DNA of 64,000 nt from Anabaena sp. UHCC 0187 (GTDB lineage: Bacteria > Cyanobacteriota > Cyanobacteriia > Cyanobacteriales > Nostocaceae). The stretch is from the NCBI RefSeq assembly GCF_009712035.1, contig NZ_VILB01000006.1, positions 1-64,000 of the forward strand. Reading direction: 5' to 3'. Under the pieces are notes generated by a model. The model saw only the letters and a list, made by a program, of their open reading frames with translations, ran no database searches and had not been told where the DNA came from. Made by a program: the position numbers and the translations under genes. How positions within the stretch are numbered: the first letter of the stretch is position 1; each line of letters opens with the position of its first letter. Positions 20,711-60,169 of this stretch are shown piece by piece.

Positions 20711-20714
20711 TAAT

Positions 20715-20742
20715 GGGCGGGCAGGATGCCCACCCCACAAGA
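20715..20742 (+). repeat. REP element 1 (left flank of RAYT)
   Basis: gggcgggcaggatgcccaccccacaaga begins 5 bases after the psaB terminator. It has an internal gggc..gccc palindrome, and its reverse complement lies at 21396-21423 on the other side of the transposase gene (26 of 28 positions match). Confidence 0.8.
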
Positions 20743-20813
20743 GATATATAAATTACAAGGAAAGATCGAAAATAATGTAATTTTCTGTTTGGAGAATGGG
20801 AAATATAAAGATA

Positions 20814-20880
20814 GGGCAGGCAAGACTTGTACTGAGCTTGTCGATAGCGTAGCGTTAGCCATAGTATGCCTACCCCACAA
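20814..20880 (+). repeat. REP element 2, interrupted by another repeat
   Basis: Left half gggcaggcaaga (20814-20825) and right half tatgcctaccccacaa (20865-20880) match a REP unit; between them sit about 39 bases that include the gatagcgtagcgttagccata element (20843-20863). It looks like a REP into which a second repeat inserted. Confidence 0.6.
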
Positions 20881-20905
20881 TAAACCTAGAAAATATTTTT
20901 CTGTT

Positions 20906-21376
20906 ATGGAAGAAGCAAGGTTGAAAATTTTCTACAGAACATTACCTCATTGGGAATTAGATGGGGCAAGTTATTTTATTACTTTTAATACTTGGGAAAA
21001 GTTAGAACTTAATTCAGAAGCTAGGAAAATAGTTTTGAATAGTTGTCTATTTTTTAATAATCAAAGATATAAAATATTTGTCTTTGTTGTGATGACGGAT
21101 CATGTACATTTACTGATGCAGCCTTTACTCAAATCAGAAAATGAGTATTGGTCACTCAGTAGCATTATGAGTAGTATCAAAGGTTATAGTGCTAAACAGA
21201 TTCCCAAGGTGATGAAACATATAGGAACTGTTTGGCAAGATGAGCGATATGACAGAATCGTCAGGAATGAAGAAGAGTTTCAATCATATTGGCAATATAT
21301 CAGACAAAATCCTATAGAAGCAGGTTTATCATCAACTCCAGAAGATTACCCTTACTTGTGGCAAACCTCAGAATAA
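20906..21376 (+). CDS. REP-associated tyrosine transposase (RAYT, IS200-like Y1)
   Basis: 156 residues from ATG 20906. This is a Y1/HUH single-strand transposase domain: LPHWELDGASYFITFNTW (strand 1), VVMTDHVHLLMQPL with the HUH pair as HVH, and the catalytic-Tyr helix region WQDERYDRIVRNEEEFQSYW followed by YIRQNPIEAGL. RAYTs are domesticated relatives of IS200/IS605 TnpA and spread REP palindromes. REPs flank the gene in inverted orientation. The frame is open back to 20726 through REP sequence; I treat that part as non-coding. Cytosolic, acting on DNA. Confidence 0.85.
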   Translation: MEEARLKIFYRTLPHWELDGASYFITFNTWEKLELNSEARKIVLNSCLFFNNQRYKIFVFVVMTDHVHLLMQPLLKSENEYWSLSSIMSSIKGYSAKQIPKVMKHIGTVWQDERYDRIVRNEEEFQSYWQYIRQNPIEAGLSSTPEDYPYLWQTSE

Positions 21377-21395: not shown

Positions 21396-21423
21396 TCTTG
21401 TGGGGTGGGCATCTTGCCCACCC
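21396..21423 (-). repeat. REP element 3 (right flank of RAYT, inverted)
   Basis: tcttgtggggtgggcatcttgcccaccc, the reverse complement of REP 1 with two differences, 19 bases after the transposase stop. Confidence 0.8.
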
Positions 21424-21502
21424 TTTGCAATAAATGGCAAGATTAGGTTAATTTAAGTAGTAGAAAAATATATACTGTAATCATTGGAAGTGAGAAGCAC
21501 TT

Positions 21503-50351: not shown

Positions 50352-52205
50352 ATTCTTTTGAAGTTGCCATTTTTGGATAGCATCTTGAGCATCTTCATAA
50401 GTAATCGTCACTTCTGGAACTAGCGCAGCGGTAGCGATAGCGGTCTTAAAATCTCCTTGAGTGGCGCGGATTTTGGCTAAATCTAAAATTTTTTCACTCC
50501 ACTGATTAATGGATGTTTGGGCAATTTCAAACCCAGGTTGTCCCTTTTGTATTTTTTTAGCAACTTCGATAGCGCGATTATAGGTAGATGCTTGTTCAGG
50601 AATAATTAACGCTTTAGCTGCATCTAAGAGAGTTTTATTGCTCACATATTGCTTGGCTTCTAGTTGCCATTGTTGAATGACAGTTTGAGCTTGAGAATAA
50701 AGCGGCTCTTTTTTGGTAATTAGCTGGGCAGTTACTATAGCATTTTCATATTGTTTTTGTTGGGCTTGTGCTTGTGCTAACTCTAAAATCATCTGACACC
50801 AAACCTGAATATTCTGCACAGATGTGGCATATAGTGGTGCATCCGGTGGAATTCTTTGGGTTTTAGCGATCGCAATACTTAAATGATCAGGTTTGGTGGC
50901 AACGAGAGACATTTTTTTTAGCTCTAAAATGGCTTGATTCCGTTTCTTGGAGTCTGTATTAAAACTGATTTGGGCGTGGCTGGAATTTTGATTAGTGGCG
51001 AAAATCTGGGGAAATTGAGGTTTGCTAGTCCTATTATTAGATACTGTTTTTGAGAAATTTTTAAACCGGAAACTCTCGTGATTGCGGAGCAAAAATGTAG
51101 CAATTAAAGCTACTATCACCATAGTCCCGCCACCCCAGATGATAAATTGTTGCCAAATGGGTGTTTCCGACTGATTTGAGGGATAGGTGTTGGGGGTGGT
51201 GACATGAGGGATAAATCTGCCCCCTGGCTGGGATTCTGGGGCAGTTGTTAGAGTCTGATTGCTGGCGACAAGTGGCTCGGAAACTGATGTGATTGCTAAA
51301 TTTTCCTCGGTCGTTATGTTGCTTAAAGTAGTTTCTGCGGAAGCATTTTCTGTCCACCAAGCTTTGTCTGTGGTGTTAACAAAGGCATTGTTTTCTATTT
51401 TTACGGGTTGTGCAGTCCCAGTGACTGCAAAACTTTCTTCTGGGAAAATTAGTGCTTCCGAGTTTTCATCTAATGTCAACGTCGGTAAAATAGCTGTCTG
51501 TTGAGCAGGAATCACCGTCACAGGATTTTGGACTGGCCGCCAATGGTGTTGACAAAGTTTGGGGGTAAGATAACTCAGATAAGCTGCTAAATCAGGGAAG
51601 TTGTATCCTTTCCCAGAACCCAAAGCTTCTAATAATGCTGCTGTGAAAAAGCCGTGACCTAATTCTGTGCTTTCATGGGAAAATTCTTCAGGTTGACAAG
51701 AAATAATTGCCCCCATTTGCAGTTCTTGGGTAAGTTCGATGATTTCTTGTCCTACGGGTGCATCTGCTTGAGTCCCAAAAGCGCGGTTAATATCAAAGAT
51801 GAGTAAGACATTGATCCCAGTAACTTGCAAGCTTTGCATCAGAGATCGCATTTCTATACCAGTTTCGGGAACTTGCTCAGGATTTCCTCCGACTGGCATT
51901 AAATAATCTTTTTCTTTGTAGTTAACCCCATAGCCGCTAAAGAATAACCATAAATAATCTCCTGGCTGCCAAAATGTAGCTGCTAATTCTTCTAGCAACG
52001 AGAGAATATTTTCTTTTGTAGGGTAGGAGGATTTATCTCCTATGGGGGGCGAAGTGTTGGTCATTAACAAGCATTGTTCTGATACAAAACCTGCTTGTGT
52101 CACCAAAAAATCTTTAATTGCCTCAGCATCTGCTTGAGCGCAACTTAGAGGTTGGAATAATTGATATTGATTAATGCCAATTGTGATCGCCCAGTATTTT
52201 ACCAT
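50349..52205 (-). CDS. caspase-family (orthocaspase-like) protein with substituted catalytic dyad
   Basis: 618 residues from ATG 52205 (MVKYWAITIGINQYQ), behind aaagagcggg; the frame extends to a GTG at 52250. The N-terminal p20 fold (to about 230) is clear, but the catalytic His of FSGHG is Tyr92 (FFSGYGVN) and the Cys of DxC is Asn140 (LIFDINRAFG). YN-type substitutions are known in cyanobacterial caspases and predict no protease activity. Then a low-complexity linker, one membrane helix (IWGGGTMVIVALIATFLL, about 350-370) and a C-terminal region with three TPR-like repeats (ENAIVTAQLITKKEPLYSQA). Probably a membrane scaffold. Confidence 0.82.
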   Translation of the reverse strand: MVKYWAITIGINQYQLFQPLSCAQADAEAIKDFLVTQAGFVSEQCLLMTNTSPPIGDKSSYPTKENILSLLEELAATFWQPGDYLWLFFSGYGVNYKEKDYLMPVGGNPEQVPETGIEMRSLMQSLQVTGINVLLIFDINRAFGTQADAPVGQEIIELTQELQMGAIISCQPEEFSHESTELGHGFFTAALLEALGSGKGYNFPDLAAYLSYLTPKLCQHHWRPVQNPVTVIPAQQTAILPTLTLDENSEALIFPEESFAVTGTAQPVKIENNAFVNTTDKAWWTENASAETTLSNITTEENLAITSVSEPLVASNQTLTTAPESQPGGRFIPHVTTPNTYPSNQSETPIWQQFIIWGGGTMVIVALIATFLLRNHESFRFKNFSKTVSNNRTSKPQFPQIFATNQNSSHAQISFNTDSKKRNQAILELKKMSLVATKPDHLSIAIAKTQRIPPDAPLYATSVQNIQVWCQMILELAQAQAQQKQYENAIVTAQLITKKEPLYSQAQTVIQQWQLEAKQYVSNKTLLDAAKALIIPEQASTYNRAIEVAKKIQKGQPGFEIAQTSINQWSEKILDLAKIRATQGDFKTAIATAALVPEVTITYEDAQDAIQKWQLQKN

Positions 52206-52397
52206 CCCGCTCTTTGTCGGTTGTTGTTTGCCGGAAATTGCTGTTAGCACGGGGCTTTAAGCACAAAGCTAACTTATGTTTGATAGTTTAGGTAATTTTC
52301 ACCTATTTTTTAAATCCGTTGTAGTTTATACAACATAAATAATCGTAAAATACTTGCAGTGGATTTCGATTATAGATCATTTAGGAGCTACAAGTTT

Positions 52398-54845: not shown

Positions 54846-56573
54846 CTAAAACAAAAAGTATCTTTGTGCCATTGGTAAAACTGTGGCAGGTTCACAAGTT
54901 AATAATTCACCATCTGCGCGAACTTCATAGGTTTCAGAATCTACTTCAATGTGAGGTAAGGCATCATTTAATTTCATATCCTGCTTAGTTAATTGACGAG
55001 TTCCCGAAACAGCAACTGCTAATTTTTTCAACCCTAATTGTTGAGGAATTTCTTTTTCTAAAGCTGCTTGAGAAACAAAAGTTAATGATGTCGCATTTCT
55101 CGCACCTGCAAAACTGCCAAACATCGGGCGCATATATACAGGCTGAGGTGTGGGAATGCTGGCATTGGCATCACCCATTTGTGACCAAGCAATCATACCC
55201 CCTTTAATCACCATTTCCGGTTTAACACCAAAAAATGCAGGTTTCCATAAACACAAATCTGCGATTTTTCCCGCTTCCACAGATCCTACATACTCAGAAA
55301 TACCATGGGTGATTGCTGGATTAATAGTATACTTAGCAACATAGCGTTTAGCTCGAAAATTGTCTGACCTCTCCCCCAACCCCTCTCCTACAAGGTGAGG
55401 GGAGAGTGTTCCGCGCTGTACCTTCATTTTGTGTGCTGTCTGCCAAGTCCGAATTATTACTTCACCGACACGCCCCATTGCTTGGGAATCGGAAGCAATC
55501 ATACTAAACGCGCCTAAGTCGTGCAATATATCTTCAGCGGCAATAGTTTCTCTACGAATACGAGATTCAGCAAAAGATACATCTTCAGGGATGGCAGAGT
55601 CTAAGTGATGACATACCATCAACATATCTAAATGTTCATCTAGGGTGTTGACGGTGTAAGGACGGGTGGGGTTAGTGGAAGATGGTAAAACGTTACTTTG
55701 TCCACAAACTTTAATAATGTCGGGTGCGTGTCCTCCTCCAGCCCCTTCTGTGTGGTAGGTGTGAATAGCACGATGTTTAAAAGCCGCAATAGTATCTTCG
55801 ACAAATCCGGCTTCATTGAGAGTATCAGTGTGAATTGCTACTTGCACATCATACTCATCAGCAATAGTTAAACAAGTATCAATTGTGGCAGGAGTAGTTC
55901 CCCAATCTTCATGGAGTTTTAACCCCATTACTCCGGCTTCAACTTGTTCGATAAGTCCTTCTGGTTTACTTGTGTTACCTTTACCTAAAAATCCCAAATT
56001 GACAGGAAAAGCATCCGCCGCTTGTAGCATTCGGTAAATATTCCAGGGTCCAGGGGTGCAAGTTGTGGCATTTGTCCCTGTGGCTGGGCCTGTACCGCCA
56101 CCGATCATCGTGGTGATACCGGAAGCAATAGCTACTTCAATTTGTTGAGGACAGATAAAATGGATGTGGGTATCAATTCCCCCCGCAGTGAGGATCATTC
56201 CTTCTCCTGCTAAAGCTTCGGTTCCCGGACCAATAATAATATCTATATTGTCTTGAATATAGGGATTTCCGGCTTTACCAATTTTGTAAATTTTGCCATC
56301 TTTAATGCCAATATCTGCCTTGACAATACCCCACCAATCGAGAATCAAAGCATTAGTAATAACTAAATCTACTGCACCATCATGATTAGAAATTGGGGAT
56401 TGTCCCATCCCATCTCTAATTACTTTTCCACCACCAAATTTCACTTCATCGCCATAGGTTGTAAAATCTTGTTCTACTTCTATAAATAATTCTGTGTCTG
56501 CTAACCTAATTTTATCACCCACTGTGGGCCCATAAGTTTCCGCATAAGCGGAACGATTCATTCTATAACTCAT
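54846..56573 (-). CDS. ureC: urease subunit alpha
   Basis: 575 residues; the catalytic subunit that hydrolyses urea at a dinuclear Ni centre. Ligands and catalytic residues are present: [11 protein letters not shown], the carbamylated Lys in [37 protein letters not shown], and the flap His in [13 protein letters not shown]. The protein is several residues longer than the usual 568-570: at about residues 389-402 (after [11 protein letters not shown]) it reads [15 protein letters not shown] before DNFRAKRY, encoded by a palindromic repeat (55367-55408). It is separated from ureB by an oppositely oriented gene, so it needs its own promoter. Confidence 0.93.
55367..55408. repeat. palindromic dispersed repeat read in frame inside ureC
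   Basis: ctctcccc (55369-55376) is perfectly inverted as ggggagag (55399-55406), with aacccctctcctacaaggtg between. Such ctctcccc...aaggngaggggag palindromes are common in intergenic DNA of Nostocales. Here it lies within the urease alpha coding sequence without a stop or frameshift. Confidence 0.8.
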
Positions 56574-56793: not shown

Positions 56794-59481
56794 ATGTCTA
56801 GTAACTTTTCCAGGCTTAGAAGAACCGCAAATGCTCAACATCTACAAAGAATTACTACGGACGAACCCGAGGTAGAAGACATAACATATATAGAAACAAG
56901 TGAGACAAAAAATACTAAAATATCACCCCAAGAAAAAGCTGAAATTTTTGAATTGGAAGGAGTTATCCGAAATTTAGAGAATAGCTTTCAGGAAATTTCT
57001 TCTATTGAAGATCCAGTCAAACGGGAGTACAAAATCCTTCAGGAAGCGAAAAGGCTAGATATCCCACCCGAAACCTATCGGCGAATGTGGGAATTTTACT
57101 GCTCAGAACAAGAACCAGAACCAGAGAAGCATTTATGGTTAAACCCCCTCACGTTTTTAGATCAACGACTGGGAGACTTTGTTAAATGGTGTGAAAATGT
57201 TTCTCTCTACAGTTTAGCCACAGTTATTGGTCAATTTACATTGTTAGCGGCAATGGGAGCTTACTTTGTGGAAGCACCTCAGAGAGAAAAAGAGGCTCTT
57301 GATAACGCTAGACAAGAAATTAGAAATCAGAAGGGAGTTGAATATTCTGAATCAAGAATTGAAGCTATAGAATATCTGAATAAAGCCTGTGAGAGTCTAT
57401 TGGGAGAACAAGCTCCCAAGGCCAACTTAGAAGGAGTTGAACTTAATAAGTGTTATAAATTTGAATGGAATTGGGGTAGGATTGCCCAATGGCCACCGCA
57501 GTTTTACAGATATGAAGGATTTGACCTGTCCCGAATGGATTTATCCGGCGTAAATTTAAGCGGAGCAAACCTTGAGGGGGCAAACCTGGAAGAAGCTAAT
57601 TTAGAGGGCGCAAACCTGGAAAGAGCAAATCTGAAAGGAGCAAATTTGAAAGGTGCGAACCTCAAAGGGGCAATTCTCAGAGCCGCTTATTTGGAGAAAG
57701 CCAATTTAGAGGAAGCGAATCTTGATAGCAGCCGCATGAGTCGGATTTATTTAAGAGATGCTAACTTAAGCAAAGCATCACTAATTAACTCTCGCTTGCT
57801 ATGGGCTGATTTAGAAGGGGCAAATCTCAACCAAGCAAATTTTCAAGGTTCTAATCTTAGCCGTGCTAATCTGCAAAGTGCTGATCTCTACAAAACTAAT
57901 TTCAAAGCAGCTTTGCTTCGCTATGTGGATATGGGGAATGAAACAATCACAATTGGCACTGAATTTGAGCGTGCTAACCTGAAACGAGCTAAGTTTTGGT
58001 CAGTGGATCAACTGAAACGATCTTATAATTGGGACAAAGCTGCTAAAGATAAAAACTGGGAAGCAGAAACTATCAAAGACACCCCAGATAAGTATAAAAT
58101 CGGATTTATTGTTCCCAACGATAACTTAACCTATAAGTTGTATCAACAAGGCTTAGAAAGGCTGGCTAAAGAAAATAAACAAGTCGAAATTATCCCCATT
58201 AAAACTGGAGAAACTGTTCAGGAAGAAGCTCAAGGGATCAAACAACTACTCACTCAAGATGTTGATGCGATCGTGATGAGACCTCTAGATCCACAGAAAT
58301 CTGTACCTAGTATTCTCCAGGCTTATGTTTCCGGTGTGGTGGTAGTTAATATCGGTGATTGCTTGCCCAAAGAAGCTCAGAAAGTCGTGTTTGCTTGTTA
58401 TGAAAGTGATTCTTCACGCATGGGTTATGATCTAGGGCAGTATATGGGCAATGCGGCATTAGACAGGAACAGGAAACAGGTAAAAGACCTAAATGTGGGT
58501 TTAGTTGATGGGGCAGATTCAACCCGTCTTTATCCTTATTTACAGGGCTTTTTCCAAGGGATAAAAGATACCAATGTCAAATGGACGGAAACGGGAACGA
58601 CTGATGCTAGAACCCCAGAAGATGTGGATAAAGTGAAAGCTATGCTCAAACGCCACCCAAATATTAATGTTTTGTGGGGTGGTTCGGAAATGACTACAGA
58701 AATTGCTCTCCAAGCAGTTAGGGAATTGGGGTTAAAGAAAAAGGTAACTGTGTATGGGATTGTTCCTTTAACTCGTAAGTTGGCAAATATGCTGCTTGAC
58801 CCTAATCAACCTCTGCAATCAATTGTGGATGAAGCTCCCAGCTATGCGGCTGAGGAGGCTGGTAAACACGCAATTAGTGTCATTGAAGGGAAAATTTCCA
58901 AAGAATATAAACACATAGTATTCCAACATCGCTTACTGACCGTCACTGACCGGAAAAAAGTCAATGATTTGATGGGTAACGCGCTGGATTTAGAGAAAAA
59001 TACGCTCAAAAAACTAATTCCTCTGCAAGCTGGAGCTAGTCTGATACCTACCTCAATTCCCTCTAGTTTAGATCCTTCTATTGCTAATTCTCTAACAGCT
59101 ATTACCGATGAGAAAAAGATCCAGAAGTTGCAAGAGGATCTACAAAAACTCATTGTTCAAAATTGGCAAATATCTAACAACAAAGAATCTAAGGAAACAT
59201 CTGTTAATTTTGATCGAGATTTAGTTTATCGGGTGTTGGTAGATTCAGAAGGAGCAATTGTTTCCTATGAGCCAATTGATAAATTGGCGATTGATTTACT
59301 GCAAACCACACCTTTACCTAAATTGTTATCTAAACCTGATGACGGTAAGGCAAAAGATGACACTCTCATATTACCTACTAAGCTAGTAATTAGTAAGTCT
59401 GTAACCGAATTTAAGGTTGTATTTAGTCCCAGTGGTAAAGTTGAGTTGAAATGGGGAGAAAGTTTCTTGGCAGATGAATAA
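56794..59481 (+). CDS. membrane pentapeptide-repeat protein fused to periplasmic-binding-protein domain
   Basis: 895 residues, unusual architecture. Residues 1-135: charged cytosolic-type helices (FELEGVIRNLENSFQEISSI). About 140-160: one membrane helix (SLATVIGQFTLLAAMGAYFV). About 240-405: pentapeptide repeats (NLSGANLEGANLEEANLEGA). About 434-700: a type-1 periplasmic-binding (sugar/autoinducer) fold, YKIGFIVPNDNLTYKLYQQG, AIVMRPLDPQKSVPSIL, NVGLVDGADSTRLYPYLQGF. About 765-895: Gln/Lys helix and a beta-rich end (DLVYRVLVDSEGAIVSYEPI). A ligand sensor is plausible. It is oppositely oriented to, and between, ureC and ureB. Confidence 0.75.
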   Translation: MSSNFSRLRRTANAQHLQRITTDEPEVEDITYIETSETKNTKISPQEKAEIFELEGVIRNLENSFQEISSIEDPVKREYKILQEAKRLDIPPETYRRMWEFYCSEQEPEPEKHLWLNPLTFLDQRLGDFVKWCENVSLYSLATVIGQFTLLAAMGAYFVEAPQREKEALDNARQEIRNQKGVEYSESRIEAIEYLNKACESLLGEQAPKANLEGVELNKCYKFEWNWGRIAQWPPQFYRYEGFDLSRMDLSGVNLSGANLEGANLEEANLEGANLERANLKGANLKGANLKGAILRAAYLEKANLEEANLDSSRMSRIYLRDANLSKASLINSRLLWADLEGANLNQANFQGSNLSRANLQSADLYKTNFKAALLRYVDMGNETITIGTEFERANLKRAKFWSVDQLKRSYNWDKAAKDKNWEAETIKDTPDKYKIGFIVPNDNLTYKLYQQGLERLAKENKQVEIIPIKTGETVQEEAQGIKQLLTQDVDAIVMRPLDPQKSVPSILQAYVSGVVVVNIGDCLPKEAQKVVFACYESDSSRMGYDLGQYMGNAALDRNRKQVKDLNVGLVDGADSTRLYPYLQGFFQGIKDTNVKWTETGTTDARTPEDVDKVKAMLKRHPNINVLWGGSEMTTEIALQAVRELGLKKKVTVYGIVPLTRKLANMLLDPNQPLQSIVDEAPSYAAEEAGKHAISVIEGKISKEYKHIVFQHRLLTVTDRKKVNDLMGNALDLEKNTLKKLIPLQAGASLIPTSIPSSLDPSIANSLTAITDEKKIQKLQEDLQKLIVQNWQISNNKESKETSVNFDRDLVYRVLVDSEGAIVSYEPIDKLAIDLLQTTPLPKLLSKPDDGKAKDDTLILPTKLVISKSVTEFKVVFSPSGKVELKWGESFLADE

Positions 59482-59538: not shown

Positions 59539-59844
59539 TTAGAGATTTCCATTGATTTTGCCGTTGAATCCATAGATTTGACGGCTACCAACTAGAGGAA
59601 CTAGAGTAACTTCTTTTTCATCTCCTGGTTCAAATCTCACGGCTGTTCCGGCGGGGATATCTAATCTCATTCCTCGCGCTTTTTCTCTGTCAAAGTTTAA
59701 AGCGGTATTAACTTCGTAAAAGTGAAAATGTGAACCAATTTGAATTGGTCTGTCTCCTGTATTTCCTACTATTAATTCAGTGGTGGGACGACCTGCATTT
59801 AATTCGATTTCACCTATTGGGGTAATAATTTCTCCGGGGATCAT
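59539..59844 (-). CDS. ureB: urease subunit beta
   Basis: 101 residues: [40 protein letters not shown] and [20 protein letters not shown], the complete UreB jelly-roll. With UreA and UreC it forms the (ABC)3 apoenzyme. It is 22 bases after ureA on the same strand. Unlike the common ureA-ureB-ureC order, the next gene downstream (lower coordinates) is on the other strand. Confidence 0.95.
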
Positions 59845-59866
59845 AATTTTTTCCTTTGCGTGAAAA

Positions 59867-60169
59867 TTATCTAATTGGATTATGTACAGTTACCAACTTT
59901 GTCCCATCAGGAAAAGTGGCTTCTACTTGGACATCATGAATCATTTCTGGAATTCCTTCCATGACATCATCACGAGTTAATAAAGTTGTGCCATAGCTCA
60001 TTAAATCTGCTACAGTTTGACCATCTCTTGCTCCTTCCAAAATAGCCGCAGAAATAAAAGCAATTGCTTCAGGATAATTCAATTTTAAACCTCTATTTTT
60101 GCGTCTTTCCGCGACTAAAGCAGCGGTAAAAATTAATAATTTGTCTTTTTCCTGGGGTGTAAGTTGCAT
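59867..60169 (-). CDS. ureA: urease subunit gamma
   Basis: 100 residues, the small gamma subunit: [40 protein letters not shown] and [20 protein letters not shown]. It is 10 bases after ureD, suggesting one transcript ureD-ureA-ureB. Confidence 0.96.

Follow-up and report, generated by a model that had tools for sequence, protein, structure and literature searches.

Palindromes that are translated as part of a protein have been described from Rickettsia, from Wolbachia and as intragenic REPs, and small dispersed repeats of cyanobacteria were reportedly described by Elhai and others in 2008. The urease alpha subunit gene (ureC) of the cyanobacterium Anabaena sp. UHCC 0187 raises the question of how a palindrome with the look of a dispersed repeat came to be read in frame inside a conserved metalloenzyme, and of why it has been kept there. 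To our knowledge, it is an open question whether the landing sites of such elements are random survivors or preferred places. Here we analyze this locus in a window of 64,000 nucleotides (contig NZ_VILB01000006.1, positions 1 to 64,000 of the forward strand), meaning the whole stretch of DNA under study, and compare its ureC with the ureC genes of related genomes.

The palindrome in ureC and its copies in the genome

The 5.1-Mb genome of Anabaena sp. UHCC 0187 (G000) yields a single UreC match, the ureC of the window (Table 1). The initial annotation, made from the letters of the sequence, had described a palindrome running in frame through this gene, and the alignment bears this out: positions 55365-55409 encode a 15-residue loop between G388 and D404 of a 575-residue ORF whose frame holds no internal stop. 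The remark that the protein is longer than usual holds as well, all 15 congeners having a ureC of 1704 bases that encodes a 568-residue UreC with a loop of 24 nt, or 8 residues, at this place (e.g. SLAGDSNA, SLGNDGNA). Together with its flanks, the loop of the window's ureC has a predicted folding energy of -24.5 kcal/mol, which gives a z of -2.3 relative to shuffled sequences. The 63-nt folding window of the loop ranks sixth of 554 along ureC, and the top six folding windows all overlap the loop. A ureC pseudogene is unsupported: the gene is complete, all 16 UreC sequences of the genus are stop-free inside, and the sequence beyond the loop shows far more synonymous than nonsynonymous differences.

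Table 1. Coordinates of the features discussed in the text, given as positions in the window
Feature	Position	Strand	Evidence or remark
REP-associated tyrosine transposase (RAYT)	20726-21376	+	NF047646, 101.8 bits (cut-off 80)
ureC (urease subunit alpha)	54846..56573	-	complete ORF, 575 aa; TIGR01792, 987.5 bits (cut-off 680)
Loop segment of ureC, 45 nt, residues 389-403	55365..55409	-	sequence reading, alignment with congeners
R1-homologous part of the ureC loop	55365..55404	+	98% over 40 bases against the copy on contig C5
Outer inverted arms CTCTCCCC / GGGGAGAG	55369-55376 / 55399-55406	+ (letters of this strand)	sequence reading, folded
Inner hairpin arms of the ureC loop	55380-55385 with 55397-55402; 55387-55389 with 55393-55395		

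Residues that we take to have catalytic roles were located with Klebsiella urease as the aligned reference (offset +2), and all of them remain in place, as had been stated initially: H136, H138, K219, H221, H248, H274, H322 and D362 do not vary among 32 aligned UreC sequences, and C321 is nearly invariant. An AlphaFold2 model of one subunit, computed from the same number of aligned UreC sequences (mean pLDDT 80.5; TM-score of 0.93 against Klebsiella UreC), has the loop flanked by two helices, 371-387 and 405-415. Residues 393-399 have a pLDDT below 50, a value that is not special to the loop, seven other stretches of the model falling below it too. The model makes it plausible that the segment is a surface loop that connects one helix to the next, and the fold of the host UreC is predicted to be intact with the insert, its catalytic residues being kept.

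The repeat within the loop, designated R1, recurs throughout the genome. A whole-genome search located it at 13 places besides ureC (E <= 0.04), the best of these matches reaching 98% identity over 40 bases (E 9e-13), and a shorter query returned at least 11 matches, including ureC and 10 others, at E <= 0.001. The further copies rule out a chance palindrome in ureC. Two outcomes had been named beforehand as speaking against the reading of the loop as a mobile repeat, namely a genome with no other copies of the palindrome and close relatives that all carry a loop of equal length with unrelated DNA. Neither was found, since the genome holds the 13 other places and the loop is of 8 residues in each of the 15 congeners, and the mobile-repeat reading is thus supported. 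Similarity between R1 copies extends over about 40 bp, some of the other copies run on into a second hairpin whose end repeats the first end in inverted form, and a consensus typed from genome copies is open in five of its six reading frames. No target-site duplication, which together with terminal inverted repeats would mark a MITE, was seen by eye at R1 in ureC. As a dispersed, multi-copy palindrome, R1 has the makeup of elements of the kind of the Rickettsia palindromic elements (RPE). R1 is present in 19 of 20 hand-picked genomes, with at least 40 matches in G102; in the remaining one (G023) no match was found among the candidates scored. For several genomes, the match counts given here and below for each repeat are lower bounds.

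The palindrome had been called normally intergenic, which proved only partly right, for coding sequence accounts for five of the 13 places outside ureC in this genome: at four, R1 is read in frame within an ORF (420-1283 aa), and at the fifth it forms a C-terminal tail. Two R1 places fall in paralogous Eco57I-type restriction-modification enzymes and another in an AAA-domain ORF, and in a 710-aa ORF R1 and a related palindrome (L194:2001-2039) make up the linker between DUF4915 and a GNAT acetyltransferase domain. The tail (L004:1501-1540) belongs to an ORF that is presumably QueC. Two further matches, one close to the beginning of a 179-aa ORF and one within the upstream part of a ZnuA ORF, were not counted as coding.

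Insert-free homologues were sought for ureC and for the Eco57I-type enzyme, and in both cases the repeat is an in-frame insertion that such homologues lack (15 of 15 congeners for ureC, 3 of 18 sequences for the enzyme). The 18 genus sequences of the Eco57I-type loop (L218-L231, L234-L237), two of them from the window's genome, comprise three whose loop of 6 residues is empty, 12 that carry a single R1 unit (15 residues in ten sequences, 11 and 21 in one each), two with two units and one with four units, the first of which is partial. One of the two paralogues in the window's genome contains a TAA within its match.

Repeats at the urease loop of relatives

A UreC match was present in 181 family genomes, and loops were read in 70 of these, 30 of them as given loci and the remaining 40 selected with a preference for unusual lengths. 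Eight of the 70 UreC sequences, cut to 390-397 aa by the ORF rule, were gapped in trees and excluded from the indel scan, in which this loop is the sole indel between residues 10 and 570 of the 62 full-length family sequences. At class level, 20 genomes, mostly with long loops, were taken from the 132 with a UreC match, and 19 of them were parsed. Of 80 named loci, a part was parsed.

Palindromic repeats were recognized in 15 of the 70 family loops, as forward R1 in seven, reversed R1 in three, R2 in three and R3 in two. The forward R1 loop of the window recurs with identical junction codons and length in six more genomes, four of genus g53 and two of genus g31; an insertion private to the window's genome is ruled out, the insert being common to two other genera. 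Reversed R1 occupies the same loop, likewise with 15 residues, in G102, G124 and G062, R2 is found there in G023, G104 and G074, and R3 in G020, while in G072 the loop attains 32 residues and consists of R3 with R4 inside. A direct tandem of R5 occupies the ureC loop of G310, a genome from another family of the order. The observation reported in the initial annotation is confirmed, and it is larger in extent than was described there.

The other repeats are also dispersed in the genomes that carry them at ureC. Counting ureC, R2 has at least four matches in G023, three in G104 and five in G074, and it has no match in the window's genome; R5 has at least 26 matches in G310. A query combining R3 and R4 gave at least 41 matches in G072, most among the matches listed falling in the R4 part. 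Five of six reading frames are open in R2 and in R4, and four of six in R3. From their common general pattern, R2 and R3 may belong to one superfamily, and we therefore distinguish at least four families (R1, R2/R3, R4 and R5). At three other places in G072 the R3 and R4 parts lie in the same order: one is the whole composite, one spans both junctions in pieces, and in the third the match crosses the left junction and reaches up to the right one. Since R3 and R4 adjoin elsewhere in this genome, R4 need not have landed inside ureC, and its insertion within ureC itself is not claimed.

Folding energies of loop and flanks divide the 70 family sequences into 16 at or below -17 kcal/mol and 54 at or above -11.2 kcal/mol. 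The 16 low-energy loops are those with the 15 recognized repeats and that of G108, which could not be assigned to a repeat. The z scores of the 15 repeat loops range from -0.1 to -4.2, length and G+C content explaining part of the energy split. Among the remaining loops, the short loops of EQRA type in other genomes may represent decayed inserts or an older state. Two further ureC loops, NLTPTSLPGGEQRA of L010 (Chlorogloeopsis fritschii PCC 6912) and NLTPTNLTGEEEQRA of L139 (G106), resemble decayed reversed R1 by eye.

Probable capture, retention and possible spread of the insert

Within the loop, codon differences summed over pairs of the seven ureC genes with forward R1 comprise 20 synonymous and 33 nonsynonymous changes; elsewhere the sums are 2941 and 612. 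These counts are raw pairwise sums rather than rates, and they fit a relaxed constraint on the protein sequence of the loop. The tip of the R1 hairpin reads TACCA in G132 (L109) and TGGTA, its reverse complement, in G100 (L106) and G119 (L108), the ureC frame remaining unbroken, and both tips are present among the Eco57I-type restriction-enzyme loops. In the window's ureC the net gain of 21 nt is smaller than the R1-derived segment of 40-45 nt, and native loop codons must therefore have been lost or overwritten. Neither a clean empty/occupied pair nor a target-site duplication marks the event.

We consider it highly probable that a small mobile palindrome has been captured as the ureC loop, and that landings in frame in this permissive loop recur and are kept as near-harmless. 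The genomes compared show directly the dispersed copies, the in-frame position, empty and occupied sites, the use of one site by several families, and similar behavior in a second protein. In the mechanism that we propose, dispersed palindromic repeats of several families would land at many places in the genome, and their mostly open frames, as in the R1 consensus, would allow landings to stay in frame. Landings out of frame or in protein cores would be removed, and those in frame between the two UreC helices that border the loop would spare both fold and active site, and so persist. The repeated overwriting of the loop, by R1 in either orientation, R2, R3, R3 with R4 and tandem R5, would follow from this persistence. 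An insert, once present, would be nearly unconstrained in its protein sequence as it evolves, and it may decay, invert at the hairpin tip or be replaced. We infer that the landing is transposition-like, with a RAYT enzyme acting on R5, and that retention stems from permissiveness rather than from benefit, the inserts being retained since the harm they cause is slight, as in the case of Rickettsia palindromic elements. A broader proposition, for and against which we see even chances, is that filamentous cyanobacteria harbor an RPE-like system in which where a repeat lands is a property of the host protein, at least four families have entered the urease loop, loops are exchanged between genera, and the whole constitutes a major source of length variation.

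The length of this loop also varies where no repeat is recognized. No recognized repeat is present in 55 of the 70 family ureC loops, whose lengths still range from 8 to 17 residues; in the class-level sample of 19 mostly long loops, a repeat was recognized by eye in G310 only and in none of the other 18, and long loops without a recognized repeat occur in other phyla as well, as in the Vibrio locus L063. Ordinary indels may well be the source of these other loops. That they also account for the inserts, the loop being simply hypervariable and its G/C-rich palindromes a product of chance or composition rather than captured repeats, is very improbable: the R1 of the ureC loop has matches of up to 98% identity over 40 bases at other places in the same genome, R2-R5 are dispersed in the genomes concerned, and the existence of dispersed copies refutes such an origin for the 15 family inserts and for G310. 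It is unlikely, too, that the palindrome is beneficial, be it as a hairpin in the mRNA that sets the pace of translation or shields the ureC transcript, or as a loop that tunes the docking of urease accessory proteins. All seven forward R1 loops do retain a strong hairpin (-20.1 to -24.5 kcal/mol), and different hairpin-forming repeats share the same place, as a benefit would lead one to expect; yet a strong hairpin accompanies any palindrome and hence is no evidence for selection on RNA, and the predicted pairing differs between sequences. The amino-acid changes of the loop, moreover, are relaxed, the 55 family sequences do without a recognized repeat, and the R1 state changes at least five times on the tree.

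Capture of a mobile palindrome leaves two routes by which R1 may have come to be shared by three genera, either several landings with equal junctions or the movement of a short segment between genera. A single origin of the forward R1 loop, followed by spread between genera through recombination of a very short ureC segment, would complement the capture of a mobile palindrome and would cover the forward R1 loops only; we hold its chances to be slightly short of even. Consistent with such spread, junction codons and length are equal in all seven forward R1 loops, and R1-bearing genes are not a clade. On the gene tree inferred without the loop, the insert-free ureC of G015 is the sister of the window's ureC; R1-bearing UreC sequences entail at least five changes on this tree, and a single clade of them is rejected (AU p 7.7e-5; both results come from a quick tree). 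Over 120 flank sites, furthermore, G000 is nearest to R1-bearing G100 (109 sites), one site over its sister G015 (108). The flanks, however, are no more divergent from G015 than the rest of the gene, with 12 of 120 flank sites differing versus 110 of 1560 elsewhere (p 0.27, not significant). At those 12 sites G000 agrees with an R1-bearing copy of genus g53 at 10 and with one of the 15 insert-free congeners at 11, so that they point to no donor, and an element with a preference for this site could also yield identical junctions. Local gene conversion in the flanks is not claimed, its sliding-window signal having come from windows that held loop columns and the direct test being non-significant.

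Candidate mobilizers, known palindromic elements and the urease neighborhood

Among the genes of the window is a REP-associated tyrosine transposase (Table 1), the only one of six Y1-transposase loci for which NCBIfam confirmed a RAYT. By eye, R5-like palindromes lie on both sides of this gene, near 20713-20740 and 21398-21424; the gene just upstream is one that we take to be psaB. Short R5 matches of 12-13 bases were found at two of the six Y1-transposase loci of this genome. On the basis of this arrangement, the RAYT of the window is a plausible candidate mobilizer of R5, the repeat family seen in the ureC of G310. R1 lies within about 1.5 kb of none of the six Y1-transposase loci in the window's genome, and none of these loci points to a mobilizer of R1.

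Rickettsia palindromic elements (Ogata and others 2000, 2002) are, in the passages cited here, palindromes read in frame in proteins (PMC10969869, PMC2229807), with a size of 105-146 bp (PMC2229807). As they are described in these passages, R1 is like them in being a short dispersed palindrome with open frames, located in frame in unrelated proteins and tolerated there. Unlike the 105-146 bp elements of Rickettsia, R1 measures about 40 bp and belongs to another phylum, and the likeness drawn here is one of description. The urease loop further departs from what those passages relate in that several repeat families occur at one enzyme site, in both orientations, in tandem, and with one repeat inside another. 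Intragenic GTAG/CGTC REPs provide a second point of comparison: the part of PMC3733652 cited here describes small palindromes wholly within ORFs, and different REPs at about the same recB site in two Xanthomonas species. Unlike these, R1 has ends without GTAG or CGTC, GTAG being found by inspection only in the hairpin tip, the ends of R1 being approximate; urease is not named in section 15 of that paper (PMC3733652). Within the cited portion of PMC3116915, which mentions the small cyanobacterial dispersed repeats of Elhai and others 2008, the REPIN/RAYT system resembles the case of R5, whose palindromes flank the REP-associated tyrosine transposase of the window, and differs from that of R1, the repeat in the window's ureC, which lacks such an association at the six Y1 loci.

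Among the best-ranked matches of a literature search with partial coverage, none dealt with palindromic repeats in urease or with a cyanobacterial landing site of this kind. In-frame palindromes in proteins are already known. The urease loop offers a natural series at a single position of one conserved enzyme, which includes empty, forward, reversed, tandem and probably decayed states, as well as one repeat lying against or inside another. In bacteria that have insert-free sister species, such a series makes the tolerance, decay and transfer of inserts directly testable, and a natural insertion-tolerant site in urease could serve for tagging.

The neighborhood of ureC in the window shows several features of its own. 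Between ureAB (59539-60169) and ureC, on the opposite strand, lies an 895-aa ORF with pentapeptide repeats and a periplasmic-binding domain (56794-59481, + strand). A pattern search places a ureB-like motif within 1.5 kb of ureC in 12 of the 15 congeners, and G004 has a pentapeptide motif instead. An Rfam match to 5_ureB_sRNA (56132-56419, + strand, 121.6 bits) runs antisense to ureC and perhaps reflects conserved urease coding sequence rather than an antisense RNA. The window also contains an ORF with a caspase-like domain (Peptidase_C14) at 50352-52250 on the - strand.
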